64,000 nt of DNA, taken from contig OY730173.1 of assembly GCA_963422465.1 (NCBI GenBank), positions 2,914,001-2,978,000 of the forward strand, written 5' to 3'. The notes under the pieces were generated by a model, which ran no database searches, was not told the DNA's origin, and saw only the letters and a list, made by a program, of their open reading frames with translations. Shown here in pieces: positions 15,508 through 50,809 of this stretch (positions within the stretch are counted from its first letter, which is position 1; the number at the start of each line of letters is the position of its first letter). Made by a program: the position numbers and the translations under genes. The stretch comes from Lichina pygmaea (Eukaryota > Ascomycota > Lichinomycetes > Lichinales > Lichinaceae).

Positions 15508-15778
15508 TGTCACGGTTCTGGCCCAGTTGCATATCTGGCACAAGCCACGCACCTTGCCGGGAAGTGCCATCTGCACTGTTTGCCTGTTTGCTCCGCCGTT
15601 GCCTGATCCCCTGCCTATAAGAACTTCTCCTGCTCCCCCAGCTTCTTCTCTTCTTTTCTCTTTTCCTTCCTCGTCTTTCGCCTTGTACATCAATCCAAGT
15701 CTCAAGTCTCAAGCCAAGTCAGGTCAAGGTTACCAAATCAGTTAGGCTTGAGTTCTGCTCTGCCATTGCCTCGTCACA
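15508..15778 (+). repeat. 5' LTR of element A
   Basis: 271 bp, starting TGTCACGG and ending CGTCACA (TG...CA). A CCTATAAG box lies ~110 bp in. Near-identical to 20555-20825. No internal tandem array. Confidence 0.93.
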
Positions 15779-15836
15779 CTGCGAAAGACCTACCCAACCA
15801 TAACACACTTCACCAAGCCACGTTCACGTCCTTGTC

Positions 15837-20554: not shown

Positions 20555-20825
20555 TGTCACAGTTCTGGCCCAGTTGCATATCTGGCACAAGCCACACACC
20601 TTGCCGGGAAGTCCCATCTGCACTGTTTCCCTGTTTGCTCCGCTGTTGCCTGATCCCCTGCCTATAAGAACTTCTCCTGCTCCCCCAGCTTCTTCTCTTC
20701 TTTTCTCTTTTCCTTCCTCGTCTTTCGCCTTGTACATCAATCCAAGTCTCAAGTCTCAAGCCAAGTCAGGTCAAGGTTACCAAATCAGTTAGACTTGAGT
20801 TCTGCTCTGCCATTGCCTCGTCACA
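20555..20825 (+). repeat. 3' LTR of element A
   Basis: 271 bp, ~98% identical to the 5' LTR, preceded by a purine-rich tract (AAGGAGGGGGG) that fits a polypurine primer site. Followed by the target duplication CAAAC at 20826-20830. Confidence 0.93.
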
Positions 20826-20926
20826 CAAACTGCAAGGGAAACCACCCAGCCTGGTCAAAGTCCTGCCAGAAAAAACAGGAAGCAATCCAGAAAGCAAGAG
20901 AGGTATGGCTAGCAAGACCAGGGAGG
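20826..20926 (+). mobile_element. LINE L1, second piece: ORF1 third zinc knuckle
   Basis: After the A target duplication this continues L1 ORF1 with CKGNHPAWSKSC and a Gln/Lys-rich stretch. It ends with GGAGG (20922-20926), the target duplication of B', repeated at 61952-61956 where L1 resumes. Confidence 0.85.
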
Positions 20927-21006
20927 TGTTAAAGGCCGGGCCGGGTTCACACAGAAGGCAGTACGGTCTTTCTGCTTCGCAGGGCGGATTCTGGACAGGG
21001 GCTCGG
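20927..21006 (-). repeat. B' 3' LTR, outer fragment
   Basis: The reverse complement of the terminal 80 bp of the B-family LTR (starts TGTTAAAGGCC). It is cut at CTCGG (21002-21006) by the B1 insertion and continues at 27361. Confidence 0.9.
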
Positions 21007-21359
21007 TGTTAAGGCCTAGGCCGGAACAGCCCAGGTAAGCGAGGGAGGAGTGTTAGTCATGCGGAACAACATCCGACCGATCCGGTGGACGAGCAAGAGC
21101 TAAGCGAGGAGCTCGTCCACGCAAAAGGATGATACCCCTCGGAGGAGACCCCCCCCTAGGGCATCTGTATAAAGACCACCCCAAGAGCCCGGAGGGATTA
21201 GCTCTCCAGGCTGAACACCAATGCACACATCGTACTGAGACAATAGCACAGGAGAGTTACCCCACCTGTCTATTCCTCTACCAAGTCTCTGTCTAGAATC
21301 CACCCTGCGAAGCAACAGACTGTACTGGTTTCTGTGTGAACCCAGTCCGGCCTTTAACA
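21007..21359 (+). repeat. B1 5' LTR (353 bp, one U3 dyad unit)
   Basis: TGTTAAGGCC...CCTTTAACA. It contains one copy of the 35-bp U3 unit, here with a perfect 10-bp dyad (21085-21094 with 21111-21120). Confidence 0.93.
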
Positions 21360-24300
21360 GTTTCAGCCTCTAACACATAGGACACTGACTTGATACGATG
21401 GTGGATCCACGAAGCCCTACCCCTTCTCAGGCAGCCCAAGCCCAGGCTGCTCAGGCGGCTCAGGCCCAGGCTGTCCAGACGGCACCTATTGTTAACCTAC
21501 CCCTGAAGCTCTTGAAGGTAGGTGCCCCGAAGAGGTACGATAGATCCAGGGGAGGACTGGAGTTGTTCTTCTCATAACTGGAGCTCTACTATGGGTTCAA
21601 CACAGCCCAGTTCCTGACAGACCAGGAGAAGGTGCTATTTGCAGCCTCCTACCTGGAAGGACCAGCCTTCGCTTGGTTCAACATCTACTTAAGAGATTAC
21701 CTAGACAATCAGGCAGACCCCAAGAAGCAAGAAGACAATACCTGACAGGTTATGGGAAGCTTGAAAACCTTTAAGACAGCCATGAGAAAGATGTTTGGGA
21801 TTCTTGACAAGGAAAAGGATGCAGAACGAAAGCTCCAAGCACTGCGGCAAACTGGATCAGCATCAGAATTCACGGCGAAGTTCCAACAACTAGCAGTGAG
21901 GACCTAGTGGGGGGACAGTGCACTAACAGCACTATTCTACCAAGGCCTCAAGGAACAAGTCAAGGATGACATCACGCGAGAAGACTGACCAACTGAGCTC
22001 TACAAAATAATCAAGACTGCAGCTCGCATTGATGACTGACAGTTTGAGAGAGAGCTTGAGAAGTGAGGCAAGCAGACAAAACTATCAGTGAAGAAAAAGT
22101 CAACACCTGCCAAAGATAACTACAGCTTGGTACCCATGGAAATCGATGTGGTGGAACCACAAAAGAAGGAAACACAGAAGTGTTACAACTGTCAGAAAGT
22201 GGGCCACCTCGCGGTGAACTGCAGAAGCAAGAAGAAGAACAAGAAGGGTAAAGGGAAGCAGTTGAACGCCACAAGCGCCTGGAAAGGCTGGGAGACGGAG
22301 GAGCCCCAGAGGGCTCCCCAAGGCACACTGCCCCACAATCACCCTGAGGCAGCACTTCTCAGAGAGGAGGACAACCTCCGACAACACACTGAAAAACTCG
22401 AGAACATGCTTCAGGAAACCTTGGATCGTCTCAACAAGGTCTAAAGGAAGGTTGACAGAATCCACTGGGAGGAAGACCTGATCTCCGAGTTTGACATAAC
22501 TGGCTATATGGAGGAACAGGTTGATGACGAAGAAGCCCAGCCACCACCAGTCCCTGACAAACCTGTCCTTCGACAACAGGACGCAACCCTATCAGAAATA
22601 GGAGAGACGCAAGTGTCACGATGGGTTGACAATACCCTCAGCATCACACAGGTCAGAGACATCACCACACAAGTGGACCTACACCAAGCTACAACAGCAG
22701 CCTGCGGACAACCTTATTGGAAGGTGTGCGAGGACGACCACTGCAAGGAACACCTTCTAGAGAAAAGAAAGAAGATGTGGTTCCCAGGGTCTGAGGTGGA
22801 AGCATGATGGAATATGCACATCCAAAGAGTCAACCCTGAACAAGATGATTACAACCAAGATCTGTGGGAACAATGCCTCACCACACGATGCAAACAACAC
22901 GCGGTAGAGTGTCAGGCCCAGGATCTAGGCAGCTCAAAAAACTAGCAGTGCTCTTCAAAACTGGGGTTGGAAGAGCAGGCAAGACAACACCCCAGGAGGA
23001 AGGAGTCAAGCCAAGCCTTGACGCAACAGCCTGCAGCCCACACTTTCACATCAAGATCAGAGTCAATGGGTGGTTGGCTAAGGCCATGATCAACTCTGGT
23101 GTGACTGGCAACTTCATGTCAGAAAGCTTTGCCAGAAGAAACAAGGTTCCAGTCCAAGGCAAGAAAGACCTCTACCAGTTGACAGTGGTGGACAGAACAC
23201 CACTCTCCAAAGACAAAGGACAAGTGATGAAGGAGACCAAAAGCCTGAGACTGAGTGTCCATGGCACGACAATCAGAACAGAGGAATTTGACTTAGTCCA
23301 GATACCACACAAAGTTATATTGGGACTTCTGTGGTTGGAAAAACAAAACCCAAGGATTGACTGGAGAAGAAGGCAACTAGTCTTTCCGGACAGAACACTG
23401 GTCATGTCAGAACCAGGGGTGACAATTAAAGAAATCTCACTGACATGCTGGAAGAAATACCACCGGCACAGGCAGGCCTGTGTGGCCTGGATGAAACCCC
23501 GAACACAACAACTTTGCACTACACAAGACGCTGTGGGCGAGACTCAGGCACCGCAGTTGCCAAGTGAGTATAAAGAATACCAGGAGATGTTTGAAGAAAC
23601 AGTGATCACGACACTACCAGAACATCAGGAGTGGGACTATAAGATTCCGCTGGAAGACAGAAAAAAAACCCACACACAGCTCTATCTACACTCTGTCAGC
23701 AAAAGAGCTTGAGGCCCTGAGAGACTACCTGGACAAGAACCTAGCGAAAGGGTTCATAAGACCTTCAACATCACCAGCTGGATACCTGATATTGTTTGTG
23801 CCAAAGAAAGACAGCAAACTTTGACTGTGTGTTGATTATCAGTGGCTAAATGTGATTACAGTGAAAAACCACTACCCACTACCATTGATATCAGAAATCC
23901 AAGACTGGATCCAAGGAGTCAAATAGTTTACCAAGTTTGACATTCAAGGCGCTTTCAACCTGGTTAGGATGAAAGATGGTGAAGAATGGAAGACAGTCTT
24001 TTGTACAAGGTACAGGTACTACAAGTATACTGTGATGCTATTCAGCCTTACAAATGCACTGGTGACATTCCAATCACTTATTAACACTGTCCTCCGACAA
24101 TACCTGGACATATTTGTCACCGCTTATATTGACGATGTCTTGGTATACACCAATAGAACCTTGGAGGAGCATAAACAGTATGTCAAAATAATCCTACATG
24201 CACTCCAGAAAGCAGGCATAAGGTTACACCTTGATAAAAGTGTTTTCCACACAAAAGAAGTGGAATATTTGGGGTTGATCCTGACAACAGAAGGAATCTG

Positions 24301-26297
24301 AATGGACGACACAAAGACAGCAGCAGTACAAGACTGGCCAACACCCAAAAACCTCAAAGAAGTACAATCCTTCCTAGGATTTGCAAACTTCTACTGATGA
24401 TTCATCAAGGACTACTCAAGAACAGTAGTAGTCTTGACAGAGTTAACCAGAAAGAACAAATCTTTCAGGTGAGGGGAGAGCCAACAAGCAGCCTTCCAGG
24501 AGTTGAAGAATAAATTCATCTCCACACCTATTTTGGCATCATTTGATCCTGAGAAGAGGATCATTCTGGAAACTGATGTCTCAGACTAAGCATTGGGATC
24601 CTGCTTGTGTCAACCAGACGCCGACAACCACTTACACCCTGTCGTGTACTGATCAAGAAAGTTCTCTGGCCCAGAACTGAGGTACGATGTTCACGACAAA
24701 GAGTTGCTAGCAATTGTCAACGTATTCCAAGAATGGAGGCCTTACTTGGAGAGGGCAAAATACACAGTAGATGTGTACTCAGACCACAAGAACTTAGCTT
24801 ACTTCACAACAACAAAGAAGCTAAACTGATGACAAGTTCAATGGGCAGAGTTGTTAGCATTATACAACTTCCAAATCCTCTACTGGAAGAGCACTGAAAA
24901 TGCTCAAGCGGATGCACTCAGCAGGTGACCAGACCTGATGGACAAGAAAACAACAGAGGAACACTTAATCCTAGCGACAAAAGGACAAACCCTGGTCTAT
25001 GCCCAACCCCAACTGGCAACAACTGAAACAAAGAGTCCACTCCTTACCCTTGGCCACAAGGTGGCAAACAAAAAGGAAATTGTGCCAGAAAGAGCACAAG
25101 AGAAGGTGATCTGGAGGCACCATGACAGGCCTTTGCACAGACACCCCGGGCAAGATAAAACCTTGGAGAAAATCCAAAGGAACTACCACTTCGACAGAAT
25201 GAAGCGCAAGGTGACAGAGTTCATCCACAACTGTGAACAGTGCACAAAGAACAAGCCATCAAGACATAAGCCCTATGGGCAGACACAGTAAATAGACCTA
25301 TCCGAGGCACCATGGGAAACTATCACAATGGATTTTGTAGTCAAGTTGCCAAAGTCAACAGACCCAGCAACAAAGGTGGTATACAATAGCATTTTGGTGG
25401 TTGTTGACAAGCTCACCAAATACACCCACCTGGTCCTGTGGAAAGAGTCAGGAACCGTGAACAAACTTGCGAGCGTCCTACTCAAAGAGCTGGTAAGCCA
25501 CCAAGGGCTACCAAAGACAATCATCTCAGATCAAGACAAACTCTTCACCTCAAAATTCTGGAACATGTAGACAAGGCAACTTGGCATTGATACAAGGATG
25601 TCAACAGCCTACCACCCACAAACTGACAGACAAACTGAACAGACAAACCAGACAATAGAGCAGTATCTACAACACTACATCAACCACCAGCAGGATAACT
25701 GGGTTGAACTGCTACCAATAGCCCAGTTTGTGTACAACAACCAGCAACACAGTGTGACAGGGACAACACTGTTCTTTGCGAACTACAGAAGAAACCCCCG
25801 ATAGCAGGCAACAGCAGAAGGCAATGTTGTTGATGTTAGCAAACTCACTGCTATGCACGAGATAATGAAAACAACAATCAACTGTGCCCAGAACACCACC
25901 ACCCGCTGATTACACAACAAAAGGTTGAAGAGACCAACCCTGGAAAGAGGGGATAAGGTCTACCTATCAACAAAAAACCTGCGCTCAAAGTGACTGAGCA
26001 AAAAGCTGGACCACGTACAAATCAGACTATTCGAAATCAAGAAGCACACTGGGAAAGTCAACTATCAACTGAGACTACCACAAAAAGCAAGGATACACTG
26101 AGTATTCCATGTCTCACTGCTTGAACCAGCACCCAGCGACGCAGAAATCAAGACAGAATGGAACTTCAAGGATGATAAAGAAGAGTATGATGTTGAAAGA
26201 ATCCTGGATAGTCAAAGAAACAGACAGAAAACTGAGTACCTGGTGAAGTGGTTAGGATTTGACAAAGAGGAGAATTCATGGGAACCAACTGAAAACT

Positions 26298-26783
26298 TCA
26301 GCTCTGCGATGAACCAGAAGCTGGTGGAATACCACCAAGCAAACCCGCAGCGACCAGGTCTGACAGGGACAATGGCTTGAGAGAAGCCAAAGTCTCTGAA
26401 GAGAAGATGTCCTCAAAGAACAGTGGAGCAGCAGCCTGACTGGCCTCCTGTTCGCGGATAACATGGAGAGCCTCTTGTTCCTGAGCATCAAGGGACTCTT
26501 GATCCTTGATAGCTGACAGCTCACGACAGATGGCATCAGCCTTCTTCTGTGAGAGATAACCCAGCTGCCAGCGGAGGTGGATCTGCCGGGGAAGCAACTT
26601 TGACAATTGGTTATCAGTCTTCCGCAGCTGAGCCTTGAGCTGCTTGCGCTCAAGTTCCATCTTCTTCTATTCTGATTCTGAGAGATGAAGGTTGCAGTGA
26701 CAACCCTTCTCAACACACTGACAACAAAAAGATGATGCGGAGCTTACGACACACTTGGCGTGGTCACAACAACAAGCACCGCA
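26298..26783 (-). pseudogene. B1 antisense frame: Zn2Cys6-type cysteine cluster and charged helical region
   Basis: On the strand opposite to pol, between chromodomain and 3' LTR. At 26694-26783 the cysteines are spaced C-x2-C-x6-C-x8-C-x2-C-x6-C, the spacing of fungal Zn2Cys6 DNA-binding domains. Nearer the chromodomain (26298-26660), a Lys/Glu/Gln/Leu-rich helical stretch starting MELERKQLKAQLRKTDNQL resembles a coiled coil. All six cysteines also occur at identical spacing in B' (27865-27954). Basic residues between the first cysteines are fewer than in classical Zn2Cys6 factors, so the assignment is by spacing only. Confidence 0.6.
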
Positions 26784-26931
26784 TGTGATTTTTGATTCCT
26801 TGCCTATTTTGCCAATACAACAAGAAAGAAAACCACGACAACAAGTTCAAGTTGTCTGGTCTTGGTTCATGACAAAAGAGGAGCAGGAACAAAAAGGATC
26901 TGGGGACAGAACTCTTGGAGAGAGGGGATAG

Positions 26932-27355
26932 TGTTAAGGCCTAGGCTGGAACAGCCCAGGTAAGCGAGGGAGAAGTGTTAGTCATGTGGAACAACATCCG
27001 ACTGATCTGGTGGACAAGCAAGAGCTAAGTGAGGAGCTTGTCTGGTGGACAAGCAGGAGCTAAGTGAGGAGCTTGTCTGGTGGACAAGCAGGAGCTAAGT
27101 GAGGAGCTTGTCCACACAAAAGGATGATACCCCTTGGAGGAGACCCCCCCCCTAGGGCATCTGTATAAAGACCACCCCAAGGGCCCGGAGGGATTAGCTC
27201 TCCAGGCTGAACACCAATACACACATCATACTGAGACAATAGCACAGGAGAGTTACCCCACCTGTCTATTCCTCTACCAAGTCTCTGTCTAGAATCTGCC
27301 CTGCGAAGCAACAGACTGTACCAGTTTCTGTGTGAACCCAGCCCAGCCTTTAACA
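26932..27355 (+). repeat. B1 3' LTR (424 bp, three U3 dyad units)
   Basis: The same as the 5' LTR apart from transitions and two extra 35-bp units, which account for the ~70-bp length difference. Ends TTTAACA, followed by target duplication CTCGG. Confidence 0.92.
27009..27115 (+). promoter_or_regulatory. B-type U3 tandem dyad array
   Basis: Three 35-bp units of the form GGACAAGC, 16-nt spacer, GCTTGTCC (an inverted repeat), with AGCTAAGTGAGGAGCT in the middle. The position upstream of a TATAAAG box fits an enhancer or operator array in U3. Other copies have one (21085-21120), three (27531-27636, reverse), four (63309-63449) and five (61697-61872, reverse) units. Confidence 0.65.
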
Positions 27356-27360
27356 CTCGG

Positions 27361-27716
27361 TAGAGGAATAGACAGGTGGGGTAACTCTTCTGTACTATTG
27401 TCTCAGTACGATGTTTGCATCAGTGTGTATTTGTATTCAGCCTGGAGAGCTAATCCCTCCGGGCTTTTTGGGGAGTCTTTATACAGATGCCCCAAGGGGG
27501 GGGGTCTTCTTGAGGAGTATCATCTTTTTGCGTGGACAAGCTCCTTGCTTAGAGACTGCTTGTCCACCAGACAAGCTCCTTGCTTAGCTCCTGCTTGTCC
27601 ACCAGACAAGCTCCTCGCTTAGCTCCAGCTTGTCCACCAGATCAGTCAGATATTGTTCTGCATGACTAACACTCCTTCCCTCACTTACCTGGGCTGTTCC
27701 AGCCTAGGCTTTAACA
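27361..27716 (-). repeat. B' 3' LTR, inner fragment
   Basis: The rest of the B' 3' LTR in reverse orientation after the B1 target duplication, ending GGCTTTAACA at 27716. Contains three 35-bp dyad units at 27531-27636. Confidence 0.9.
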
Positions 27717-27864
27717 CTATCCCCTCTCTCCAAGAGTTCTGTCCTCAGATCCTTTCTGTTCCTACTCCTCTTTTGTCATGAACTGAGATCAGACAACTTG
27801 AACTTGTTGTCGCAGTTCTTTTTGTTTTTGCATTGGCAAAATAGACAAGGAATCAAAAATCACA

Positions 27865-28350
27865 TGTGGTGCTTGTTGTCACAATCACGCCAAGTGTGTT
27901 GTGAGCTCTGCATCATCTTTTTGTTCTCAGTGTGTTGAGAAGGGTTGTTGCTGTGACCTCTATCTCTTGGAATCAGAATGGAAGAAGATGGAACTTGAGT
28001 GTGAGCAGCTTGAGGCTCAGCTGCGAGAGACTGATGACCAATTGTCAAAGTTGCTTCCCCGGTAGATCTGCCTCTGCTGGCAGCTGGGTCATCTCTCTCA
28101 GAAAGAGGCTGATGCCATCTGTTGTGAGCTGTCAGCCATCAAGGATCAAGAATCCCTTGATGCTCAGGAGCAGAAGGCTCTCTGCGTTATTCGCAAACAG
28201 GAGGCCAATCAGGCTGCTGCTCCTCTGTCCTTTGAGGACATCTTCTTCTCAGAGACTTTGGCTCCTCTCAAGCTGTTGTCACTGTCAGACCTGGTCGCTG
28301 CAGGTTTGCTTGGTGGTAATCCGCCAGCTTCTGGTTTATCACAGAGCTGA
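27865..28350 (+). pseudogene. B' antisense frame with Zn2Cys6-type cluster
   Basis: Because B' is reversed, its antisense frame reads on the plus strand. The cluster C-x2-C-x6-C-x8-C-x2-C-x6-C spans 27865-27954 and is followed by a Glu/Leu/Gln-rich helical region. Cysteine positions match B1 exactly although the two copies have diverged. Confidence 0.6.
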
Positions 28351-28972: not shown

Positions 28973-29567
28973 TGTTACAACCCAGGAGGAACACAGTCTT
29001 TATATACTCACAGAAAGCAGCAGACTGGATACTGGATGGAAGTACCAGACAGCGTGGCACGGGAACCAGTCACGTGACTGGTGAGACAAACCAGGGGGTG
29101 CTTGCCGCAGCATGCATATGCACGAACAAGTGAGCAAAGTGAGCAGAGCTCACCCAGCTTGCCGCAGCATGCATGAACAAGTGAGCAAAGTGAGCAGAGC
29201 TCACCCAGCTCACCGCAGCGTGTATGAACTGTGAGCAAAGTGAGCAGAGCTCACTGATCTTGCCGCAGCATGCATGAACTGTGAGCAAAGTGAGCAGAGC
29301 TCACTGTGCTCACGAACTGAGCACTATATAGTCTGGTGATAGTTCCCTTATGGAACAATCATCTTCAACTCATGTTGTGATCCAGACAACTAGATCTACT
29401 TCAATACAATCCTTTTGTACGAAGCTGTTGATCAGGTGTCACCACCACCACGTTCCACCAAACCCCTTCGCACTTCTTGACACTCCTCTCCTGTGAGAAC
29501 CAACCCACCTTCCACCTCTCGCTCTAATCCTATACTTGGATAGGACAGTACAGTACAGACCACAACA
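28973..29567 (+). repeat. E1 5' LTR, D-type (595 bp)
   Basis: TGTTACAACCCAGGAGGAAC...CACAACA. U3 holds four units of the GTGAGC/GCTCAC array, then a CACTATATAG core promoter shared with C-type LTRs. Confidence 0.92.
29130..29313 (+). promoter_or_regulatory. D-type U3 dyad array
   Basis: Four ~50-bp units. Each has GTGAGC-AAA-GTGAGC-AGA-GCTCAC, containing the perfect dyad GTGAGC/GCTCAC, separated by a GCAGCATGCATGAA-like core. Two units occur at 44025-44107 and 54025-54107, four at 59860-60041. A CACGTG box (TCACGTGACTGG) lies just upstream. Confidence 0.65.
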
Positions 29568-30963
29568 CTTTGAAGACCCTCAAGGATGAGTACCTCAGGA
29601 GCAACCAACCCCAACTTCCCAGATGGAAAGATTAGCGTCGCCAAGCCAGACCTGTTCTACAGTGAAAGAAACAAGGTTGACAACTGGCTCATGCAACTTC
29701 AAGTCTACTTTCAATTCCAACCAGAGACGAAGCTGCCTAAGGACAAGTGGCCCCTCTTCGCAACCACTTACATAAGAGGTAATGCTTATTGATGGATCAA
29801 GCCCTATGTCAACAAACATCTCTCAGGAAACAGAGACCACAACAGCACAACAGAATGGATGACAAAATAGATGTGATTCAAGGACAAGATCAAAAAGATC
29901 CTTGGACTATCTAACAAAGACAAAGTGGCTATACGGATGATCCAGCACATCAAGCAACAACACTCAGCCGCAGAGTACACCACGTAGTTCAAACAATACT
30001 CAGTACTGACTGACTGGGACAACAACACCCTGATAGTCATGTACTGATGTGGACTCAAGGAAAACATGAAGAATGAAATCACCTTCAACAGATGAGCAGT
30101 TGACACACTGGATAAACTCATCACACAAGCAATCAACATTGATGACAAACTATTCAAGTGAGCAATAGAGAAACACCACGACAGAGGATACAGCCACCCC
30201 ACATAGCATGTGAGCAACCACTACAAGCTGCCTAACAAGGCACCACCACATGACCTATATGGCTATACACCCATGGAACTGGATGCAGTCCACCACAAGG
30301 GAAGGTTCACGAAGGGAAGGAACAACAAAAAAGGGAAAGCACTGAAGTGTTATGTCTGTGGCAAGCTAGGCCACATGGTGAAAGACTGTCATTCAAAGAA
30401 CAAGGTGCACTAACAGCAACTTAATACGCTCGACAGAGACTGGAATGTCATCAAGCCAGAGGACCCACCAGGAGAGGCTCAGCTATCCCTCAAACAATAG
30501 GACAACTACGATCAGACATTGGAAGCAGCCCACCAACTGGCAACATCAGGAGGTAAGGATCTACCAGAACAGACAGGTCAGGACAAGGGACAGGAGCCCT
30601 TAACTACCTCTGATGGGGACTGAGATGAACCCATGTCTATCAAAGAAGAAATACCACAAGGAAGCTATGCTTTTTTTTTTTTGATTCTTACACTGGTAGT
30701 AGGTTTACAGCCATGCAGATCTTCTAGCTAATAGTGAACTCCTTCAGAAAACCTTTGAAGGGATAAAAACTGAAGGCAGGGTGTGACTAGGGAATGTAAC
30801 AAAAGGAATCTTGAAGTTTCTGGTAAGAGAAGAGAATCTAGGTATTGGATTGGGAATAGTGGAGTTTGAAAGCTAGATTAAACTGGTTTAGTCTTTTCAA
30901 AGACATAAACCAGTACAAGAACTTCTGTAGTAGCTCTGGGTTTGAAATAATAGTGGTGAAGTC

Positions 30964-31603
30964 TGTTACGACCCAGGGGATGGGAGCCACTCATTTATAG
31001 GCAATCAGGCTGTGGGCCAGGCAAGAGGACACCATGGAAGTCAAGTGACCAACCAACAAGGGGTCACGTGACTGTCGAGACACACGGGAGTCTTGACGCA
31101 GCATGCATGAAGTATCAAGACAATCTCACCAGTCTCAACGCAGGATGCATGAAGTATTGAGACAATCTCACCAGTCTTGACGCAAGATGCATGAAGCATC
31201 AAGACAATCTCACCAGTCTTGACACAGGATGCATGAAGCATCAAGACAATCTCACCAGTCTTGACGCAGAGTGCATAACATGGTGGGACTGTCAAGACAA
31301 TCTCACCCGTCTTGACGTCAAGACTGTCAAGACAATCTTGATCGTCTTGACAGGCCAGCACTATATAGTCCAGTGATAGTTCCCTTATGGAACAATCATC
31401 TTCAACTCATGTTGTGATCCAGACAACTAGATCTACTTCAATACAATCCTTTGTACAAAGCTGTTGATCAGGTGTCACCACCACCATGTTCCACCAAACC
31501 CCTTCGCACTCCTTGACACTCCTCTCCTGTGAGAACCAACCCACCTTCCACCTCTCGCCCTAATCCTATACTCAGATAGGACAGTACAGTACAGACTGCA
31601 ACA
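30964..31603 (+). repeat. E2 5' LTR, C-type (640 bp)
   Basis: TGTTACGACCCAGGGGATGG...CTGCAACA. One more 42-bp U3 unit than its 3' partner explains the 40-bp length difference. Confidence 0.92.
31090..31352 (+). promoter_or_regulatory. C-type U3 dyad array
   Basis: About four 42-bp units with the perfect dyad GTCTTGA, 18-nt spacer containing GATGCATGAA, TCAAGAC, followed by a compact run of the same half-sites. About three units occur at 37063-37285, 44392-44613 and 50332-50553. A GTCACGTGACTG box lies upstream and CACTATATAG downstream. Confidence 0.65.
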
Positions 31604-32553
31604 CTTTGAAGACTCTCAAGAATGAGTACCTCAGGAGCAACCAACCCCAACTTCCCAGATGGAAAGATTAGCGTTGCCAAGCCAGACCTGTTCTACAGCG
31701 AAAGAAACAAGGTCAACGACTGGCTCATGCAACTCCAAGTCTACTTTCAATTCCAACCAGAGACGAAGCTGCCTAAGGAAAAGTGGCCACTCTTTGCAAC
31801 CACTTACATGAGAGGCAATACTTATCGATGGATCAAGCCCTACGTTAACAAACATCTCTCAGGAAACAGAGACCACGACAGCACAACAGAATAGATGATG
31901 AAATAGACACAATTCAAGGACAAGATCAAAAAGATTCTTGGACTATCTAACAAAGACAAAGTGGCTATACGAATGATCCAGTACATCAAACAACAACGCT
32001 CAGCCGCAGAGTACACCACGCAGTTCAAACAATACTCAGTACTGACTGACTGGGACAACAACACCCTGATGGTCATGTACTGACGTGGACTTAAGGAAAA
32101 CATGAAGGATGAAATCACCTTCGACGGACGAGCGGTCAACACACTGGACAAACTCATCGTACAAGCAATCAACATCAATGACAAACTATTCAAGCGAGCG
32201 ATGGAGAAACACCATGACAGAGGATACAGCCACCCCGCATGGCATGTGAGCAACCACTACAAGCCACCTAACAAGGCACCGCCACATGATCCATATGGCT
32301 ATGCACCCATGGAACTGGATGCAGTCCACCACAAGGAAAGTTCACAAAGGGAAGGAACAACAAAAAGGGGAAAGCACTGAAGTGCTATGTCTGTGGCAAG
32401 CTAGGCCACATGGTGAAAGACTGTTGTTCAAAGAACAAGGTGCACTGACAGCAACTTAATACACTTGACGGAGACTGGAATGTCATCAAGCCAGAGGACC
32501 CACCAGGAGAGGCTCAGCTATCCCTCAAACAATAGGACAACTACAATCAGACA

Positions 32554-33120
32554 TTGGAAGCAGCCCACCAACTGGCAACATCAGAAGGCAAGGACCTACC
32601 AGAACTGACAGGTCAGGACAAGGGACAGGAGCTCTTAACTACCTCTGATGGGGACCAAGATGAACCCGTGTCTATCAAAGAAGAAATACCACAAGGAAGC
32701 TATACTTACAGCATGGACCCACAAAATCTACAGCACGGCGAACTACAGTGGAGACTTTGCACAAAGCACTACTGCACCTACCACGAACAACTACAAAGGT
32801 ACGGAGGACATTCACCCTACCACACCACCTGCCACAAGCATTGGGTCAATTGCAAGAAGGATGTGTGTGAGATCCATCTTTGGGATAAACGCCAACACAC
32901 TACATTCCCTGGGCACACACATGATTGGCACAAACACCTCATGTTCCTACAGCAAGGCAACAACCACAACTGCTACATCAACAATTGGCAGTACTGCCTC
33001 AAGCCTGGATGTGACAAGTATCAGCAAGACAAATTCATGAACAGATTCCTTAGGACTGATGGGAATGGCTGGACCCATTGCCCAGTCAGCGGAAAGACAC
33101 TTCGATCAGGAAAAGACTGA
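32554..33120 (+). pseudogene. E2 Gag-Pol linker with three W-x2-C-x4-C-x2-H modules
   Basis: Between gag and protease, three short modules repeat: WRLCTKHYCTYH, WVNCKKDVCEIH and WQYCLKPGCDKY, i.e. Trp, Cys, Cys and His/Tyr at fixed spacing. The same region exists in E1 (39.64-40.04 kb), E3 (45.8-46.4 kb) and E4 (55.4-55.86 kb), and one module occurs in B1 (~22.72 kb). They may bind metal; no function is known to me. Confidence 0.6.
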
Positions 33121-36100
33121 ACTCCCTTGTCAAGGGGTGACATCGGGAGCTCAACAACATGACCCCTAGCAACGCAAAGCACCTGCGATTGCCTGTGTCA
33201 CTACATGCCAACACGCCAGTACGGACATATGCACTTGTTGACTCTGGAGCCAGTGGGAACTACATTTCAAGACAACTTTACAACACCCTCGGCACTGGAA
33301 GGAGACGCAAGCAGCAGCCCTATCAGCTCGCGATGGCAAATAGACAGACAGAGCTAGTCTGCCATGAGACGCAGCCAATGGAAATAGTTACCAGACACTA
33401 TGCTGAAAGGATCCACCTTGATATTGTTGAGTTGGCCACTCAGGATATCTATTTGGGGATGCCTTGGCTAAAGAAGCACAACCCAGTTGTTAACTGGAAG
33501 ACAGGAGTACTCACGTTTAGGAACTGCACTAACAACACAGCTCAGACCTGTTACCAGCCGCAGAAGGCGTGGACAGATGAGGGAAGGAGTCCTCAGTGGA
33601 ACCTCACCAACAGAAAGAATAACTCTCAAGAGAAGAGGTCCACCTTGACAGGCACACCGCGGAACCAGGTGGCCAAACAGTCAGAGATAAAGAGAGAGGA
33701 AGTTGTTAACCCTCTGGAGATCTCTGAAGAGTACTGACCTGGGTATGATAACCTCTTTCAGGAAGAGACAACAACAGCAGTGTTGCCTAAGCACCAACCT
33801 TGGGATCATGAGATCAAGTTGCAACCAGGGACGGAGCCAGGATTTGGACCAATTTACCAGTTATCAGAGAAAGAGCTCCAAGTACTTCGCGAGTACCTGG
33901 AGGAAAACCTGAAAAAGGGTTTCATTTGAGAATCTCAATCGCCAGCAGGATACCCGATACTATTTGCACCAAAGAAAGACAGAAGTCTTCGACTTTGTGT
34001 GGATTACAGGAAACTCAATGACATTACCATCAAGAACTGATATCTGTTGCCAAATGCGAACAAATTGCGAGACAGGATCAGCCAAGCTACAATCTTTACC
34101 AAGCTGGACTTGAAAGGAGCATACAACCTGATACGCATGAAAGAAGGAGAAGAATAGAAGACAGCCTTCAGAACCTGATACAGACACTACAAGTATCTGG
34201 TTATGCCATTCAGACTCACAAACACACCAGCAACATGTCAAGCATTGATCAACAACATCATCAGAGCACACCTGGACCAAACAGCTATCGTCTACCTGGA
34301 CAACATTCTTGTCTACTCGAACACACAACAAGAACATACCAAACATGTGAAGGATGTTCTACGATGCCTACAAGAGGTAGGGCTCAAGCTCAACCTGAAG
34401 AAATGCGAGTTCAACAAACTGGAAGTTGAATTCCTTGGATACATCATAGAGATTGAAGGGATCAAGATTGACTCTGAGAAAATCAAAGTGATTCAGCAAT
34501 GGCCAACACTGACATCAGTTAAGGAAGTACAAGCCTTCCTAGGATTTGCCAACTTCAACTGACAGTTTATCAAGAACTACTCACAGATGGCAACACCACT
34601 GACAGAACTCACGAAGAAGGACGTGGAGTACTGGTGGACGGAGAGACAACAAAAAGCATTCCAACAGCTCAAGGATGCTTGTGCCAAGGAACCAGTTCTC
34701 CTCAACTTCAAGACAGGCCAACCGACACAAATCAAGACAGACACTTCAGATCAGGCAGTGGGAGCATGTCTATGCCAACAGGCAGACAGCAAGTGGCACC
34801 CAGTTGCCTACTACTCACGAAAAATGACACAAGCAGAACAAAACTATGATATCCACAATAAAGAGCTACTGGCAGTCATCAACGCACTTGAACACTGGAG
34901 AGTGTACGTGGAAAGCAGTTCTGAACTCACCATTCTCACAGACCACAAGAATCTGACAACGTTCACGACAACCAAGAAGCTGAACAGACAGCAAGTCAGA
35001 TAGGCTGAACTCCTAGGGCAACACAAGTTCAAGATCTTGTACACCCCTGGACAAGACAATAGGAGAGTAGACACACTAAGCTGACGAAAAGACCACATGG
35101 AAGATGATGAACACCAAGGAATGATCTTACAGTAGGACCAGCAAGGAAACCTGGTGCCTCAACCACAGATCAACAAGCTCACAGCAGAAGACACTGAAGA
35201 ACTAATAAGGAACTACCATGATAATCCAGCACATAGTCACCCAGGAATCTCCAAGACCACAGACCTTATCCAACAGGCAGGGAACAATGTCATTAACCTC
35301 TGACAACATGTCACAAACTACATCAGCAAGTGTCTACTATGCCAGAAAAACAAACATGGAAGACATAAGCTATACGGAGAAGGACACCTGAACACAATAC
35401 TGAGAGGCCTGTGGGAAGACGTGTCAATGGACTTCATCACAAAGCTACCCAAGTCCAAAGACCCAGTCACAGGAATCACCTACGACTTGATTATGGTGAT
35501 AGTGGACAGATTCACAAAATATCTAATAGTGGTACTATTCAAGGAGACCCACACAGCAGAACAGTTGGGACACCTCTTACTGGACAGATTGGTCAGAGAC
35601 CACGGAGTTCTGATCACGATCATTACAGACAGAGATAAACTCTTCACATCCAACTACTGGAAGACAATCAGTGCAGCCATGGGAACAAAACCCAAAATGT
35701 CTACAGCCTATCACCCACGAACCAACGGCCAGACGGAGTGAGTCCTGGAGACTTACTTACAGCATTACATCAACAAGACCCACAGCAATTGGGTACAGTT
35801 ATTACCGGTGGCACAGCTGGCAATCAACCAGCACAGATCAGACTCAACAAAGGAATCACTATTTTTTGCCAATTTTGGACAACATGCGAACATCGGGATG
35901 CCAAGCAAAGCTTCACCAAACACGGAGAAAGCACTCCAACACGACAAGCTCCTACAACAAACGCACACGATGATGAGGCACTAACTTCAAGAGACCTCAG
36001 AAAGAATGCAACATCAAATGGACAAGAAATCGAAAATGGCACCTCAGCTAAAGAAGGGGGATAAAGTCTACCTCCTCACAAGAAATTGGAGAACAAAGAA

Positions 36101-36368
36101 ACCAAGAACAAAGAAACTGGACCATGTTAAGGTCGGACCATTTTCAGTTGAAGAAAAAACTGGACCAGTCAACATCAGACTGCGACTACTGAGAGACACT
36201 TGGGTACACTCAAACTTTCACATCTCAATGATCAAATTAGCTGACCAGAGTACACCCTTGCAGGAAACATTTCATTACCAACCAGAGGAAGAACAGGAAT
36301 TCAAGGCCGAACAGATCCTGAAGAGAAAAAGTCAGTGATACCTTGTCAAGTGGAAAAATTACCCAGAC

Positions 36369-36822
36369 TCAGAAAATACCTGGGAGCCACTCAGGAACCT
36401 CGCGAACTGCCAGCTCCTCCTGCAGCAGTTCTGGCAGAAGCAGGACTGAACAGCTCGGCCTGCAGCGTGGACATGTCAATGACTGTCGCTGACAAGTCTT
36501 CACCATCCACCTCCATTTCAGCAACAAGGCACTGGAGCTTCTTCTTTGCTCAACCCTCAGCACCCTCAAGAACCTTTCACTTTCAGGACACACAAGCCTG
36601 CAGCTCGGCAAGCTGCTCAACAAGAGCATCCCGCTTGGCCTCATCAACAGCCAAATCCTTGCGAAGGTTATCCTGAGTCATGTTCAGCAACTCCCAAGAA
36701 AGTGACACACAGGACTTCCCACAACAAGTGCATTCAGCGCACTTCAACTTATCGTTGTTGTCAGACATTTGGAAGCAGAGCTTGTGGTTCAAAACACAGA
36801 AGTCACACAGAGCAAGCGACAC
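36369..36822 (-). pseudogene. E2 antisense frame with Zn2Cys6-type cluster (C-type)
   Basis: The cluster at 36709-36807 reads C-x2-C-x6-C-x11-C-x2-C-x6-C (CDFC...KLC...CAEC...KSC). It is followed by a Leu/Asp/Lys-rich helical stretch (NLRKDLAVDEAKRDALVEQL). Same place and orientation as in B1, E1, E3 and E4. Confidence 0.6.
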
Positions 36823-36935
36823 AAAGTTATGATCACAGATCTGGGCTGCCGGTTGGTTTCAGTAAGCAGAGACACATGATTTTGCAGACATACTCAAGAA
36901 TTCATCAGGACAATGAATGAAGGAGAGGAGGGTAG

Positions 36936-37535
36936 TGTTACAACCCAGGGGATGGGAGCCACTTATTTATAGGCAATCAGGCCACGGGCCAGGCAAGAGG
37001 ACACCATGGAAGTCAAGTGACCAACCAACAAGGGGTCACGTGACTGTCGAGACACACACAGGAGTCTTGACACAGCATGCATGAAGTATCAAGACAATCT
37101 CACCAGTCTTGACGCAGGATGCATGAAGTATCAAGACAATCTCACCAGTCTTGACGCAGGATGCATGAAGCATCAAGACAATCTCACCAGTCTTGACGCA
37201 GGGTGCATAACATGGTGGGACTGTCAAGACAATCTCACCTGTCTTGACGTCAAGACTGTCAAGACAATCTTGATTGTCTTGACAGGCCAGCACTATATAG
37301 TCCGGTGATAGTTCCCTTATGGAACAATCGTCTTCAACTCATGTTGTGATCCAGACAACTAGATCTACTTCAATACAATCCTTTGTACAAAGCTGTTGAT
37401 CAGGTGTCACCACCACCACGTTCCACCAAACCCCTTCACACTCCTTGACACTCCTCTCCTGCGAGAACCAACCCACCTTCCACCTCTTGCCCTAATCCTA
37501 TACTCAGATAGGATGGTACAGTACAGACTGCAACA
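36936..37535 (+). repeat. E2 3' LTR, C-type (600 bp)
   Basis: Starts TGTTACAACCCAGGGG after a GGAGAGGAGGGTAG purine-rich tract; ends GCAACA, followed by target duplication AAGTC. Confidence 0.92.
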
Positions 37536-37540: not shown

Positions 37541-39620
37541 TTGGGGATTAAAAGAGACTTGTTGTCTTTGTCTTGAATAAAGAGAGCATGAAGAGGTGAT
37601 ATGTTTTGCAGTTTCTTCTGCTTGGCCACACACACATAGTGGGGTAGGGAAGTCAGGAGCTCCAGCTCTGAAAAGAAAACTTGCCAGACCAATTCTTCCA
37701 GTCCTGATTTGCAGTAGCAGACTTGCCTCAGCTTTCTGTAACTTTTTGTAGAGCTTCAGATTGTTTTTGTGTGGCTTTTGACAGAAAGTCTGCCAGCCTG
37801 GATAGCTTCTTCTTTTCTTCTCTTCCTATTGGTCTTCCCACTCTTTAGTAAAGAGCTTTTGTAGTTCTTTCTTTGAACTAGCCTGGTTAGTAGTTATTTG
37901 ACTTAACCAAGTGAATTTCCACTTAGGAGAGATAGTTGAGGATTCCTTTAAAGGTTTCTTCAAGAGAGAGGCATAGCTGGAAATAGTGGAAAAGATACTG
38001 TCAAGAAAGTATTTGAGAGGGGAGTTTTGAATAGAAGAAAGAAAACAGGCAGTGCGAAATTTAAAGTATAGGTCTAGAGGTAGAAGAAAAAGCTCACTCT
38101 CTAATAGAAAAGAAGGAGTGGCTTTGAAGGCACCCCCAATAAGTCTTAGGCATCTGTTTTGAAATGAAACAAGAGAAGAGATATTGGAGGATTTTCTTAG
38201 AGGGTTAAACCAGATCTCCACTGCATAGCTCAGTAGAGATCTCAGTATAGCAGTGTACACCAGACGTGATGTGTGAACTGGAAAGCCCCAAGTAGAATAG
38301 GAAGTTCTAGAAAGAGAAGAGAGTGCTTTCTGTGCTTTTTGAAGAATAATCCTCTGGTGTTTGTGCCAGTGGAGCTTTGCATCTAGGTACACTCCAAGTA
38401 CTCGCACTTCTTCTTTTGGTTTGAGAATCACATTCCCCAGTCTGAGCTTGAGCTGAAGATTGTCTGATCTTCTTCTGGAAAAATGAAGTATTTTATATTT
38501 CTCAGGTGAGAAGACTATTCCATGTCTTGCAGCCCAGGATAGACATTTGTGGTGTGTGTTCTTTAACTTCAGAAGGTTACTTTTCAAGGAGTGACCAAAA
38601 GCAAGCAGATTTGTATCATCTGCAAACCCCAGGGCAGATACACCAGAAGAGGGAGTATGCACAGTCTCATGCAATTCAGAAATGTAGAATAGAAAAAGAA
38701 TAGGGGATAATGGAGAACCTTGAGGAACTCCACAATGAATAGGAATTGAACAAGACTCAGAATCATCAAAGACAAGAGTGGTAGAGCGCTTATCACAGAA
38801 GGAGTAGATCCAGGAAGCTAGCCAGGCAGGTATTCCTTTTCTTTTCAGAATTTGCTGTAGTATCTTGGGGAGAACTCTGTCATAGGCTCCTGAGATATCC
38901 AGTGAGAGTAGGGATGCAACCATGCCTTCCTTCCAGACTTTTTCCACTTGGGAGGTTAGAAGGAAAAGTGCTGCTTCTGTGGATCTTCCTTTCCTAAAGC
39001 CCATCTGGATATCTGGCAATAGTCCAGCTTCTTCTGCTATCTTGCTTAGTCTGGCTGCAGCAATAGCTTCCATCAGCTTGCCTGTTGTGTTTAGCAGAGC
39101 TATAGGGCGCCAGGCTTTAGCTTGATTGTAGGTTCTCTTGCCAGGTTTCCTCAAGCAGACTGTTTTTGCATTCTTAAATCTTTCAGGGAAGTACTCCAGT
39201 TTCCAGCATGTTGAAGTCAGAATAGCTAGAGCTTGGCAGAACCTAGGCCCCAGAGCTCTCAGAAATCCATTTGGCAGCTTATCTCTCCCTCCTGCTGTGA
39301 AAGGTTTCTTCTTGGCCAGAATTTGCTCCACTTCTTCACATGTTACCTCCTGGGAGAGCTGTATCTCAGAGATAGTCTGGGAGCTTTCTGAGCCTGGTTC
39401 TGGAACTAGAGCTTTTGGAAAGAACTGTTGTGAGAAGGCTTTAGTCTTTTCCTCAAAGGTTTTGGCTATTCCTTCTTGTGTTTCCAGGTCAGGAACCAGA
39501 GGAAGATCAGGAGTCTTGTTGGCTTTGGACTTTCCCCACTTTGCAAGCTTCCAGAACTTTGAAGAGCTGGCCAGCTCATGGATTTGGTGTCTGAAAGTGT
39601 TCTGTTTTCCATCTCTGACT
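37541..39620 (-). pseudogene. L2 ORF2: reverse transcriptase and C-terminal CCHC region
   Basis: About 597 codons are open from the truncation point to a TAG at 37826-37828. RT motifs include the AWRPIALLNTTGKLMEAI block, QMGFRKGRSTEAAL, SLDISGAYDRV, GVPQGSPLSPILFLFYI and the catalytic LGFADDTNLLAF (FADD at 38615-38626). After that single stop the same frame continues with a LQIRTGRIGLASFLFRAG linker and a CVCGQAEETAKHITSSC zinc-binding end near 37.6 kb; after E2 it ends at 30878. No RNase H domain is seen between RT and the CCHC end, where Tad elements usually have one. The first ~40 codons of the long open frame (39739-39621) belong to E1, not to the LINE. Confidence 0.88.
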
Positions 39621-42600
39621 AAGCTATGCTTACAGCATGGACCCACGAAATCTACGGCATGGTGAACTACAGTGGAGGTTTTGCACAAAGCACTACTGCA
39701 CCTACCACAAACAACTACAAAGGTACAGAGGACATTCACCCTACCACACCACCTGCCACAAGCATTGGGTCAATTGCGAGAAGGATGTGTGTGAGATCCA
39801 TCTTTGGGACAAACACCAACACACCGCATTCCCTGGGCACACACACGATTGGCACGAACACCTCATGTTCCTACAGCAAGGCAACAACCACAACTGCTAC
39901 GTCAACAATTGGCAGTACTGCCTCAAGCCTGGATGTGACAAGCATCAGCAAGACAAATTCATGAACAGATTCCTCAGAACTGATGGGAATGGCTGGACTT
40001 ATTGCCCAGTCAGTGGAAAGACACTTCAATCAGGAAAAGACTGAACTCCCTTGTCAAGGGGCGACATCAGGAGCTCAACAACATGACCCCTAGCAACGCA
40101 AAGCACCTACGATTGCCTGTGTCACTACACGCCAACACGCCAGTACAGACATACACACTTGTTGACTCTGGAGCCAGTGGAAACTACATCTTGAGGCAAC
40201 TTTACGACACCCTCAGCACTGGAAGAAGACACAAGCAGCAGCCCTATCAGCTTGCGATGGCAAATAGACAGACAGAGCTAGTCTGCCATGAGACGCAGCC
40301 AATGGAAATAGTTACTGGACACCATACTGAAAGGATCTACCTTAATATTGTCAAGCTGGCCACTCAGGATATCTATTTGGGGATGCCTTGGCTAAAGAAG
40401 CATAACCCAGTTGTTAACTGGAGGACAGGAGTACTCACATTTAGGAACTGCACTAACAACACAGCTCAGACCTGTTACCAGCTGTAGAAGGTGTGGACAG
40501 ATGAGGGAAGGAGTCCTCAGTGGAACCTCACCAACAGAAAGGACAACTCTCAAGAGAAGAGGTCTGCCTTGACAGGCATACCCCAGAACCAGGTGGCCAA
40601 ACAGTCAGAGATGAAGAGAGAGGAAGTTGTTAACCCTCTGGAGATCCCTGAAGAGTACTGACCTGGGTATGATAACCTCTTTCAGGAAGAGACAACAACA
40701 GCAGTGTTGCCTAAGCACCAACCTTGGGATCATGAGATCAAGTTGCAACCAGGGACAGAGCCAGGATTTGGACCAATTTACCAGTTATCAGAGAAAGAGC
40801 TCCAAGTACTTTGTGAGTACCTGGAGGAAAACCTGAAAAAGAGTTTTATTCGAGAATCTCAATCACCAGCAGGATACCTGATACTATTTGCACCAAAGAA
40901 AGACAGAAGTCTTTGACTTTGTGTGGATTACAGGAAACTCAACAACATTACCATCAAGAACTGATATCTGTTGCCAAATGTGAACGAATTGTGAGACAGG
41001 ATCAGCCAAGCTACAATCTTTACCAAGCTGGACTTGAAAGGAGTATACAACCTGATATGCATGAAAGAAGGAGAAGAATGGAAGACAGCCTTCAGAACCT
41101 GATACAGACACTACAAGTATCTGGTGATGCTATTCAGACTCACAAACACACCAGCAACATGTCAAGCATTGATCAATAACATCATCAGAGCATACCTGGA
41201 CCAAACAGCTATCACCTACCTGGACAATATTCTTGTCTACTCAAACACACAACAAGAACATACCAAACATGTGAAGGATGTTCTACGATACCTACAAGAG
41301 GCAGGGCTCAAGATCAACCCAAAGAAATACAAGTTCAACAAACTGGAAGTTGAATTCCTCGGATACATCATAGGGGTTGAAGGGATCAAGATTGACTCTG
41401 AGAAAATCAAAGTGATTTAGCAATAGCCAACACTGACATCAGTTAAGGAAGTACAAGTCTTCCTAGGATTTACCAACTTCAACTGACAGTTCATAAAGAA
41501 CTACTCACAGATGGCAACACCACTGACAGAACTCACAAAGAAGGACGTGGAGTACTGGTGGACAGAGAGATAACAAAAAGCATTCTAACAGCTCAAGGAC
41601 ACTTGCGCCAAGGAGCCAGTTCTCCTCAACTTCAAGACAGGCCAACCAACACAAATCAAGACAGATACTTCAGATCAGGCAGTGGGAGTATATCTATGCC
41701 AACAGGCAGATGGCAAGTGGCACCCAGTCACCTACTACTCACGAAAAATAACACAAGTGGAACAAAACTATGATATCCATGATAAAGAGCTACTGGCAGT
41801 TGTCAACACACTCAAACACTGGAGAGTGTATGCGGAAAGCAGTTCTGAACTCACTGTTCTCACAGACCACAAGAATCTGACAACATTCACAACAACCAAG
41901 AAGCTGAACAGACAGCAAGTCAGATAGGCTGAACTCCTAGGGCAACACAAGTTCAAGATCTTGTACACCCCTGGACAAGACAATAGGAGAGCAGACACAC
42001 TAAGCTGACAAAAAAACTACATGGAAGATGATGAACACCAAGGAATAATCTTACAGCAGGACCAGCAAGGAAACCTAGTGCCTCAACCACAGATCAACAA
42101 GCTCACGGCAGAAGACACTGAAGAACTAATAAGGAACTACCACAATAATCTAGCACATGGTCACTCAGGAATCTCCAAGACCACAGACCTTATCCAATGG
42201 GTAGGGAACAATGTCATTAACCTCTGACAACATGTCATAAACTACATCAGCAAGTGTCTACTATGCCAGAAAAACAAACATGGAAGACATAAGCCATACA
42301 GAGAAGGACACCCGAACACGATACTGAGAGGCCTGTGGGAAGACGTGTCAATAGACTTCATCACAAAGCTACCCAAGTCCAAAGACCCAGTCACAGGAAT
42401 CACCTACAACTTGATTATAGTGATAGTGGACAGATTCACAAAATATCTAATAGCGGTACTATTCAAGAAGACCCACACAGCAGAACAGTTGGGACACCTC
42501 TTACTGGACAGATTGGTCAGAGACCACGGAGTTCTGATCATGATTATTACAGACAGAGACAAACTCTTCACATCCAACTACTAGAAAACAATCAGTGCAG

Positions 42601-43509
42601 CCATGGGAACAAAACTCAAAATGTCTACAGCCTATCACCCACAAACCGACAGCCAGACAGAGCAAGCAAACCAAGTTCTGGAAACTTACTTACAGCATTA
42701 CATCAACCAGACCCACAGCAATTGGGTACAGTTATTACCAGTGGCACAGCTGGCAATCAACCAGCACAGATCAGACTCAATAAAGAAATCACTATTTTTT
42801 GCTAATTTTGGATAACATACAAACATCAGGATGCCAAGCAGAGCTTCACCAAACATGGAGAAAGCACTCCAACATGACAAGCTCCTACAACAAACACACA
42901 CAATGATGAGGCACTACCTTCAGAAGACCTCAGAAAGAATGCAACATCAAATAGACAAGAAATCAAAAATGGCACCTCAGCTAAAGAAGGGGGATAAAGT
43001 CTACCTCCTCACAAGAAATTGGAAAACAAAGAAACCAAAGACAAAGAAACTTGACAACATCAAGATCAGACTATTTTCAGTCGAAGAAAAAACAGGACTA
43101 GTCAACATCAAGATACAACTACCAAGGGATACCAGAGTCCATCCAAACTTTCATATATTGATGATTGAACCAGCCGACCAGAGCACACTCTTGCAGGAAA
43201 CATTCTATTATCAACCTGAAGAAGAACAAGAGTTTGAAGTTGAACAGATCCTGGCTAGAAAAAGTCAGCAATACCTCGTCAAGTGGAAAGGATACCCAGA
43301 CTCAGAAAATACCTGGGAACCACTCAAGAACCTCACGAACTGCCAGCTTCTTCTGTGACAGTTTCAGCAGAAGCAGGACTGAACAGCTCGGCCTGCAAGA
43401 GGGACATGTCAATGACTGATCAAGTCAAATCCTCGCCATCTGACTCTATCTCTTTCACCAAGCACTGAAGCTTCTGCTTTGTACAGACCTCGGCACCCTC
43501 CAACACCTT

Positions 43510-43746
43510 TCACTTCTGAGACAGACAAGCCTGCACTGTGGCAAGTTGTTCAAAGAGTGCATCATGTGTTGCCTTGTCAGTGGCCACATCCTCACAGAGG
43601 TTGTCCCAGGATATGTTCAGAGATTCCCAGGACACAGAGACACAAGACCTTCCACGCTGAGTGCACACAGCACATTTCAACTTATTGTCTTCTCCCAGCA
43701 TCTGGAAGCACAGACAACCACGGAGAACACAAAAGTCACAGGGCAT
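43510..43746 (-). pseudogene. E1 antisense frame with Zn2Cys6-type cluster (D-type)
   Basis: An open 78-codon stretch. The cluster at 43642-43740 has C-x2-C-x6-C-x11-C-x2-C-x6-C, then NLCEDVATDKATHDALFEQL, a likely helix. Its sequence differs clearly from the C-type version in E2 while the cysteine spacing is the same. Confidence 0.6.
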
Positions 43747-43867
43747 ACATGAAACAAAACCCTGATCGCAGATTTGAGCAGCAAGCTGAGTTCAGCTAAC
43801 AGTTGTACGTGACTTTGGAGGCATGACCAGATTTCATCAAGATGATGAAAGATGGAGAGGAGGATAG

Positions 43868-50137: not shown

Positions 50138-50204
50138 GAGGCACGTGATTTTGCAGACATACTCAAGAATTCATTGGGACAATGAATGAAGGAGAGGAGG
50201 GTAG

Positions 50205-50804: not shown

Positions 50805-50809
50805 CCTTC

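Follow-up and report, generated by a model that had tools for sequence, protein, structure and literature searches.

An antisense gene and a U3 dyad array that differ as one block between subfamilies of Gypsy-type LTR elements in Lichina pygmaea

Antisense genes that adjoin the 3' LTR are on record for plants and fungi, with no role assigned to them. A nest of LTR elements in a 64,000-nucleotide stretch of Lichina pygmaea DNA (contig OY730173.1, positions 2,914,001 to 2,978,000; hereafter the window) bears on what such a gene might do. Between pol and the 3' LTR, several of these elements carry an antisense frame with six regularly spaced cysteines, and their U3 regions contain tandem arrays of inverted repeats. 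The original prediction read the frame as a Zn2Cys6-type regulator with its cognate operator in the U3. Is the frame a gene, what does its product resemble, and is it tied to the array by function or by linkage?

The window looks fungal. A Ybp2/YAP-binding-type gene (10830-13188; Pfam Kinetochor_Ybp2, 1.2e-58 for the gene's first piece) adjoins the nest, which by self-BLAST spans from about 15.5 kb to the window end. Interpreting the self-BLAST matches as element extents, we distinguish element A (LTRs at 15508-15779 and 20555-20826), B1 (about 21003-27355), B' (27355-61951, minus strand, inverted and interrupted), an interrupted E1, E2 (30962-37535), E3 (44265-50804), E4 (53868-60296) and the start of a further B element at about 63230. 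B1 and B' lie tail to tail, their 3' LTRs abutting near 27355 (27300-27420), and form a large inverted repeat; the B' LTR at this junction is shorter than the others. E3 is inserted in the 3' LTR of E1 and has CCTTC on both sides (44260-44264 and 50805-50809), a target duplication that fixes the order of the two insertions. The E elements fall into two types, E-I (E2 and E3) and E-II (E1 and E4).

Profile matches suggest that the E and B elements are chromodomain Ty3/Gypsy (chromovirus-type) elements, a group marked by RT, RNase H, integrase and a chromodomain at the C-terminus. Among the E elements, Pfam profiles match RNase H in E2 (5.8e-35), the integrase core in E4 (in E2 just under the cut-off) and Chromo in E3 (2.9e-15). 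The B elements match protease RVP_2 (B1) and H2C2 (B'), and their chromodomain was recognised by frame reading only.

The antisense six-cysteine frame is present in six of the seven LTR elements that have a 3' end in the window; a motif scan of the seventh, element A, found no such motif. Its spacing is C-x2-C-x6-C-x8-C-x2-C-x6-C in B1 and B' and C-x2-C-x6-C-x11-C-x2-C-x6-C in E1, E2 and E4. The original prediction had located the motif in these five copies, and all five positions translate to the antisense cysteine pattern. The decayed version that it described in E3 also holds up (49978-50076, six cysteines kept and an in-frame stop inside the cluster), and all six cluster cysteines are retained in all six copies. 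A regular expression for the motif returned eight matches in 21001-64000, comprising the six antisense frames and two spurious matches in U3-repeat frames, and none in 40 dinucleotide-shuffled copies, which leads us to reject a chance origin. The reading frames of the U3 array at 29107-29196 and 44002-44091 fit the expression by themselves, a warning for genome-wide pattern searches.

The frames extend from ATG to stop at 26298-26870 in B1 (minus strand; six-cysteine domain at 26694-26783, then a helical region), 27778-28350 in B' (plus strand; six-cysteine domain at 27865-27954) and, all on the minus strand, 36391-36891 in E2, 43324-43824 in E1 and 49660-50160 in E3. E4 has lost its ATG and reads ATA at the start position of the corresponding frame (59159-59659, minus strand). 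All six frames are interrupted, by two to four internal stops each (two in B1 and E4, three in B' and E3, four in E2 and E1). Within-type E differences are mostly transitions and are densest at CpG, then CpA, relative to the dinucleotides present, as RIP-like or methylation-driven decay of inserted copies would produce. The internal stops are consistent with C:G-to-T:A decay that came later and struck mainly at CpG and CpA.

The antisense frame starts internal to the 3' LTR, its start codon being about 45 bp away from the LTR in E and about 60 bp away in B. At the other end the E2 frame overlaps pol, its stop at 36391 falling within the chromodomain end of pol, whose TGA is at 36447-36449. Position and orientation are those of the aORF-3R class (antisense ORF between pol and the 3' LTR); as for that class's presence in most copies as a protein-coding frame, six of seven elements carry it, with coding status drawn from E only.

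We compared E-I with E-II only at sites where both members of each type agree, a restriction that removes most later decay. The antisense frame holds 115 fixed differences over 498 bases, 60 of them in third positions. They produce 61 amino-acid changes, compared to 82.9±4.2 expected when the same changes are placed randomly on like bases, and none of 2000 shuffles was as low. With E4 as background the values are 59 and 83.3±4.3. Outside the pol overlap we counted 57 nonsynonymous changes, compared to 79.7±4.1 expected (0 of 2000 shuffles as low); this persistence rules out that the frame is held open merely by its overlap with pol. The mirror frame was the sole low one of the remaining five (70 versus 82.7, gaining 7 stops), as expected from the third positions that it shares with the antisense frame. 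The C-terminus of pol served as a positive control, in which pol's own frame was recovered (20 versus 33.3, 0 of 2000) and the mirror frame gave 22 versus 33.1.

Estimates of dN/dS for the antisense frame are 0.19 between types (E3-E4; 0.13 on fixed codons); comparisons inside one type, which mainly reflect decay, give 0.52 (E2-E3) and 0.31 (E1-E4). In the E elements the antisense frame thus codes for protein and is constrained by purifying selection. The differences between B1 and B' are largely transition-type decay, which precludes a selection test for B, and a coding role of the B frame is suggested by its pattern and position.

Zn2Cys6 factors share the spacing C-x2-C-x6-C-x5-12-C-x2-C-x6-8-C, carry a basic recognition helix and bind DNA, often as a coiled-coil dimer. 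The spacing is found in all six copies (in E3 with the stop inside), and to this extent the Zn2Cys6-type label fits. Yet none of the six read-throughs (X at stops) matches Zn_clus (PF00172), and the search of open or trimmed segments proposed along with the label went against it, with matches in none of nine segments compared to 1.6e-12 for a Gal4 control. AlphaFold block pLDDT for the cysteine region is about 38-51 for E (three sequences) and about 43-66 for B' (two sequences). Given the missing Zn_clus match and the lack of a confident cysteine fold, we do not call the protein a Zn2Cys6 member. The helical stretch said to follow the cysteine domain is predicted confidently in B' (pLDDT block means 95-97) but weakly in E (about 63).

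Likeness to Gal4, Ppr1 and Put3 thus extends to the cysteine spacing and the helix after it; unlike these factors, the Lichina protein has no Pfam match and no evident basic recognition helix. The best other Pfam match of the antisense segments was DUF5477 (0.0043, below its cut-off), and neither read-throughs nor segments matched TRP28 (PF04195). Gal4-type factors contact DNA through the region between the second and fourth cysteine. Amino-acid differences between the E types occupy 7 of 17 positions in that region versus 3 of 8 in the stretch from the fourth to the sixth cysteine, a count on which we dropped the idea that they cluster in the DNA-contact part. Homology between the B and E proteins is not convincing (hhalign probability 4%, out of register). 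PDB searches with the antisense proteins returned nothing relevant, and searches with both proteins in viral contigs and with the E protein in genome contigs, collections not meant for fungi, returned no confirmed relatives. We describe the product as a six-cysteine protein with a helical tail, possibly of zinc-cluster-like kind, and its cysteine domain may bind metal.

The U3 tandem arrays of the original prediction are real, with TRF units of 35 bp in B, 42 bp in E2 and E3 and 50 bp in E1 and E4; element A, as also predicted, lacks both array and antisense motif. On the plus strand, the 42-bp units (arms GTCTTGA/TCAAGAC) occupy 37063-37208 in the 3' U3 and 31089-31276 in the 5' U3 of E2, and 50332-50477 in the 3' U3 of E3 (5' copy 44392-44537). 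The 50-bp units (arms GTGAGC/GCTCAC) lie at 29118-29304 in the 5' U3 of E1 and 59849-60041 in the 3' U3 of E4, also on the plus strand. The 35-bp units (arms GACAAGC/GCTTGTC) lie at 27006-27112 in the 3' U3 of B1 (plus) and 27535-27641 in the 3' U3 of B' (minus), the latter with a 5' LTR copy at 61700-61876. The B1 5' LTR has lost its array and contains no half-sites. Array length can differ between the LTRs of one element (for example 4.5 units in the 5' and 3.5 in the 3' LTR of E2), implying that copy number changes at or after insertion.

Half-sites are type-exclusive within the 15 LTR stretches examined. Single half-sites do occur outside LTR stretches (56,889 bases, both strands together), where we counted 25 TCAAGAC, 23 GTGAGC and 19 GACAAGC. 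The description of the units as inverted repeats stands in part. Taken singly, their dyads are just modestly above chance, with p of 0.046 (E-I), 0.228 (E-II) and 0.036 (B) for the longest exact arm versus shuffles and of 0.128, 0.007 and 0.04, respectively, with mismatches allowed; over all real units, by contrast, the E-I and E-II dyads are clear.

Units of E-I and E-II share a TGCATGAA-type core flanked by arms 7 bp to the left and 2-3 bp to the right. The arms sit at matching offsets and differ in their letters, GTCTTGA/TCAAGAC in E-I versus GCTCAC/GTGAGC in E-II. Of the 13 E-I units, 11 have exact arms, as do 3 of the 9 E-II units. Mean pairing in the real units was 6.69 of 7 for E-I and 4.67 of 6 for E-II; with flank positions shuffled identically in every unit the means fell to 3.29 and 3.00, and 0 and 1 of 5000 shuffles, respectively, came as high. 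These values apply to related copies within each type and to an arm offset window set after inspecting the units. The pattern suggests that the letters changed under preserved dyad symmetry, as a dimer site would show.

The E U3 regions also contain TATA-like sequences in both directions. An antisense TATA-like box is found at LTR position 32-38, near the outer edge, in each of the eight E LTR stretches, which are copies of two types and related to one another; TATAWA has a background frequency of 0.031 per 60 nt and strand. The box reads TATAAAT in the E2 3' LTR (36965-36971, minus strand), where the antisense ATG follows about 80 bp downstream, and its counterparts end at about 43901 (E1), 50240 (E3) and 59736 (E4). 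A sense TATATAG follows the array in all eight stretches. None of five B LTRs has the antisense box, and these have the sense box only.

The two E types have in common a 14-bp LTR edge and the block GTCACGTGACTG (37035-37046, unstranded, at position 100 of the E2 3' LTR). Six of the eight E LTRs carry this block unchanged, and both E4 LTRs deviate from it by one base. We take GTCACGTGACTG to resemble a host-factor site. E LTRs have 0-3 CGG and 1-4 CCG each, so few that a Gal4-style site is not evident.

Through gag-pol, E2 and E3 are 90-100% identical to E4 per 200 columns, and the differences are nearly all transitions. Identity then falls to about 80%, 67-69% and 52-56% across the chromodomain end of pol, the antisense gene and U3, and is back at 96-97.5% in R-U5 of the 3' LTR. 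We compared upstream pol by counts of fixed differences rather than by dS, the copies being mutually out of frame there, and began the sums at E2 32697 because E1 is interrupted upstream. Across all four E copies, 38 fixed E-I/E-II differences (37 transitions and 1 transversion) fall in the 3.4 kb that end at about E2 36088, and the next 1.2-kb block contains 248 (148 transitions and 100 transversions). The diverged block (36080-37300 in E2, plus strand) begins near 36080, in an SH3-like stretch just before the chromodomain, takes in the SH3-like/chromodomain end of pol, the antisense ORF and U3, and ends near 37310, at the sense TATA and the U3/R boundary. It contains both the antisense gene and the dyad array, and the types of the two differ together between E-I and E-II.

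During reverse transcription, the 3' end of the RNA serves as template for U3 in both new LTRs, and R-U5 is copied from the 5' end. A single template switch upstream of the chromodomain would thus give a mosaic of exactly this form. Gene and U3 would then be co-inherited mechanically, and their association in the window is by itself no evidence of function. The co-occurrence of gene and dyad types in the original prediction is indeed present, but it represents three lineages (B, E-I and E-II), not seven independent elements, and the window offers one informative contrast, E-I versus E-II. A swap between B1 and B' was rejected, since these differ mostly by transition-type changes at a fairly even rate; transversions are somewhat more frequent (7) in the array part.

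We propose that these elements carry an accessory gene opposite gag-pol and tail to tail with pol, for which the coding evidence comes from E. In E elements, the gene would probably be transcribed from the TATA-like box near the outer U3 edge, and the U3, in which the array is observed to lie between two TATA boxes, would act as a two-way promoter. The six-cysteine, probably metal-binding, domain and its helix would most likely make the product a dimeric DNA-binding regulator, one that acts on its own U3 array and sets both sense and antisense output. The 3' part of the element, starting just ahead of the chromodomain and running through U3, would travel between elements as a unit, as the observed mosaic suggests and most simply through template switching in reverse transcription, with the gene staying with its own array. 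We put the chances of this explanation as a whole at about even. Self-regulation is our best guess at function from the sequence, and co-inheritance would also follow from one template switch. A stricter version, a private circuit in which the regulator encoded by the element and the dyad operator that matches it, within a two-way U3, move between backbones as one cassette, specificity and letters changing together, we hold tentatively and would not call probable. If true, it would let families avoid cross-regulation.

Parts of this arrangement have known counterparts; literature searches for an antisense cysteine-cluster gene in fungal Gypsy elements brought up, among others, brtn and plant elements. 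Boty Gypsy elements of Botrytis cinerea carry the antisense gene brtn (Zhao et al., 2011, via PMC7264820, PMC8365987 and PMC4227169), which the same three sources count among antisense ORFs between pol and the 3' LTR; a CHROMO domain is named for Boty (PMC4227169), and a BRTN-like match is given for Monilinia (PMC5987419). The likeness to Lichina, compared by description only, lies in an extra antisense gene in a fungal Gypsy element. Plant Retand elements have an antisense ORF between pol and the 3' LTR with a TRP28 domain, predicted to bind DNA, and in about half of them tandem arrays nearby (PMC11963269). Site, predicted DNA binding and nearby arrays are thus alike in outline, whereas the Lichina elements have no TRP28 match, carry their arrays in U3 and as dyads, and reside in a fungal host; Retand belongs to a non-chromovirus lineage.

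The HBZ gene of HTLV-1 is an antisense gene expressed from the 3' LTR, and its bZIP protein lowers the virus's own LTR-driven expression (PMC10186651). By analogy, the Lichina antisense regulator would work like HBZ. We claim no shared ancestry, and HBZ has a bZIP domain and a TATA-less promoter, compared to six cysteines and, in E, a TATA-like box in Lichina. Plant Tnt1 and Retrolyc1 elements combine a conserved coding part with sharply different U3 types, termed "modular evolution" (PMC1838419). The E elements resemble them in a shared coding part and divergent U3; no antisense gene is mentioned for Tnt1 in the passages considered.

The main rival to self-regulation is an array that serves as a host-factor enhancer and is linked to the gene purely mechanically. 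Here the gene would be real, and gene and array would change together as neighbours whose whole 3' end is moved by one template switch. One switch upstream of the chromodomain would yield precisely this mosaic, and GTCACGTGACTG, on our assumption of a host-factor site, is common to both U3 types. Tnt1 groups likewise differ in U3 (PMC1838419). Against this stands the dyad itself, in which the letters differ in both arms yet symmetry and offset are kept, though a change of host factor could explain that too. We regard this reading as a substantial possibility, if short of an even one. An antisense protein that acts elsewhere, on RNA, Gag or chromatin or as a copy-number control factor, would leave the array out of account. 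The lack of a Zn_clus match, a basic recognition helix that is not evident and type differences not concentrated at Gal4-type DNA contacts all fit such a protein, as does the unproven function of Retand and other plant antisense products. Gene and array types that differ together across the block speak against it, albeit weakly, since the linkage is mechanical, and we think it unlikely.

Least probable, to the point of being strongly disfavoured, is that the frame is a non-coding by-product whose antisense RNA, not protein, matters and feeds silencing. Stops in all six copies would agree with this, and antisense transposon RNAs are reported for a fungus (PMC10648671). Codon-level constraint between the E subfamilies contradicts it, and the stops are accounted for by C:G-to-T:A decay.

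Antisense genes at this site (brtn and Retand) and modular U3 regions (Tnt1) were already known. Titles and abstract openings in the open-access literature yielded no case of an antisense gene and a U3 dyad array in one exchanged cassette. What is new is that the two differ as one block between near-identical E backbones. The same backbone with different gene-plus-promoter cassettes in two subfamilies amounts to a natural swap experiment on self-regulation.

Other open frames occur among these elements. Near the 5' end, on the gag side, all four E elements have a stop-free antisense frame of 138 amino acids (29807-30220, 31843-32256, 45104-45517 and 54601-55014); this frame is perhaps no more than a mirror of gag coding, and too few differences separate the E types there for selection to be assessed. 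Open frames at 62187-63110 resemble a non-LTR element, the first having an Exo_endo_phos_2 endonuclease domain (8.8e-07). Inside E1, after E2, an open antisense frame of 647 amino acids (37829-39769) matches RVT_1 (1.4e-33) and may represent a non-LTR element whose frame is fairly intact.
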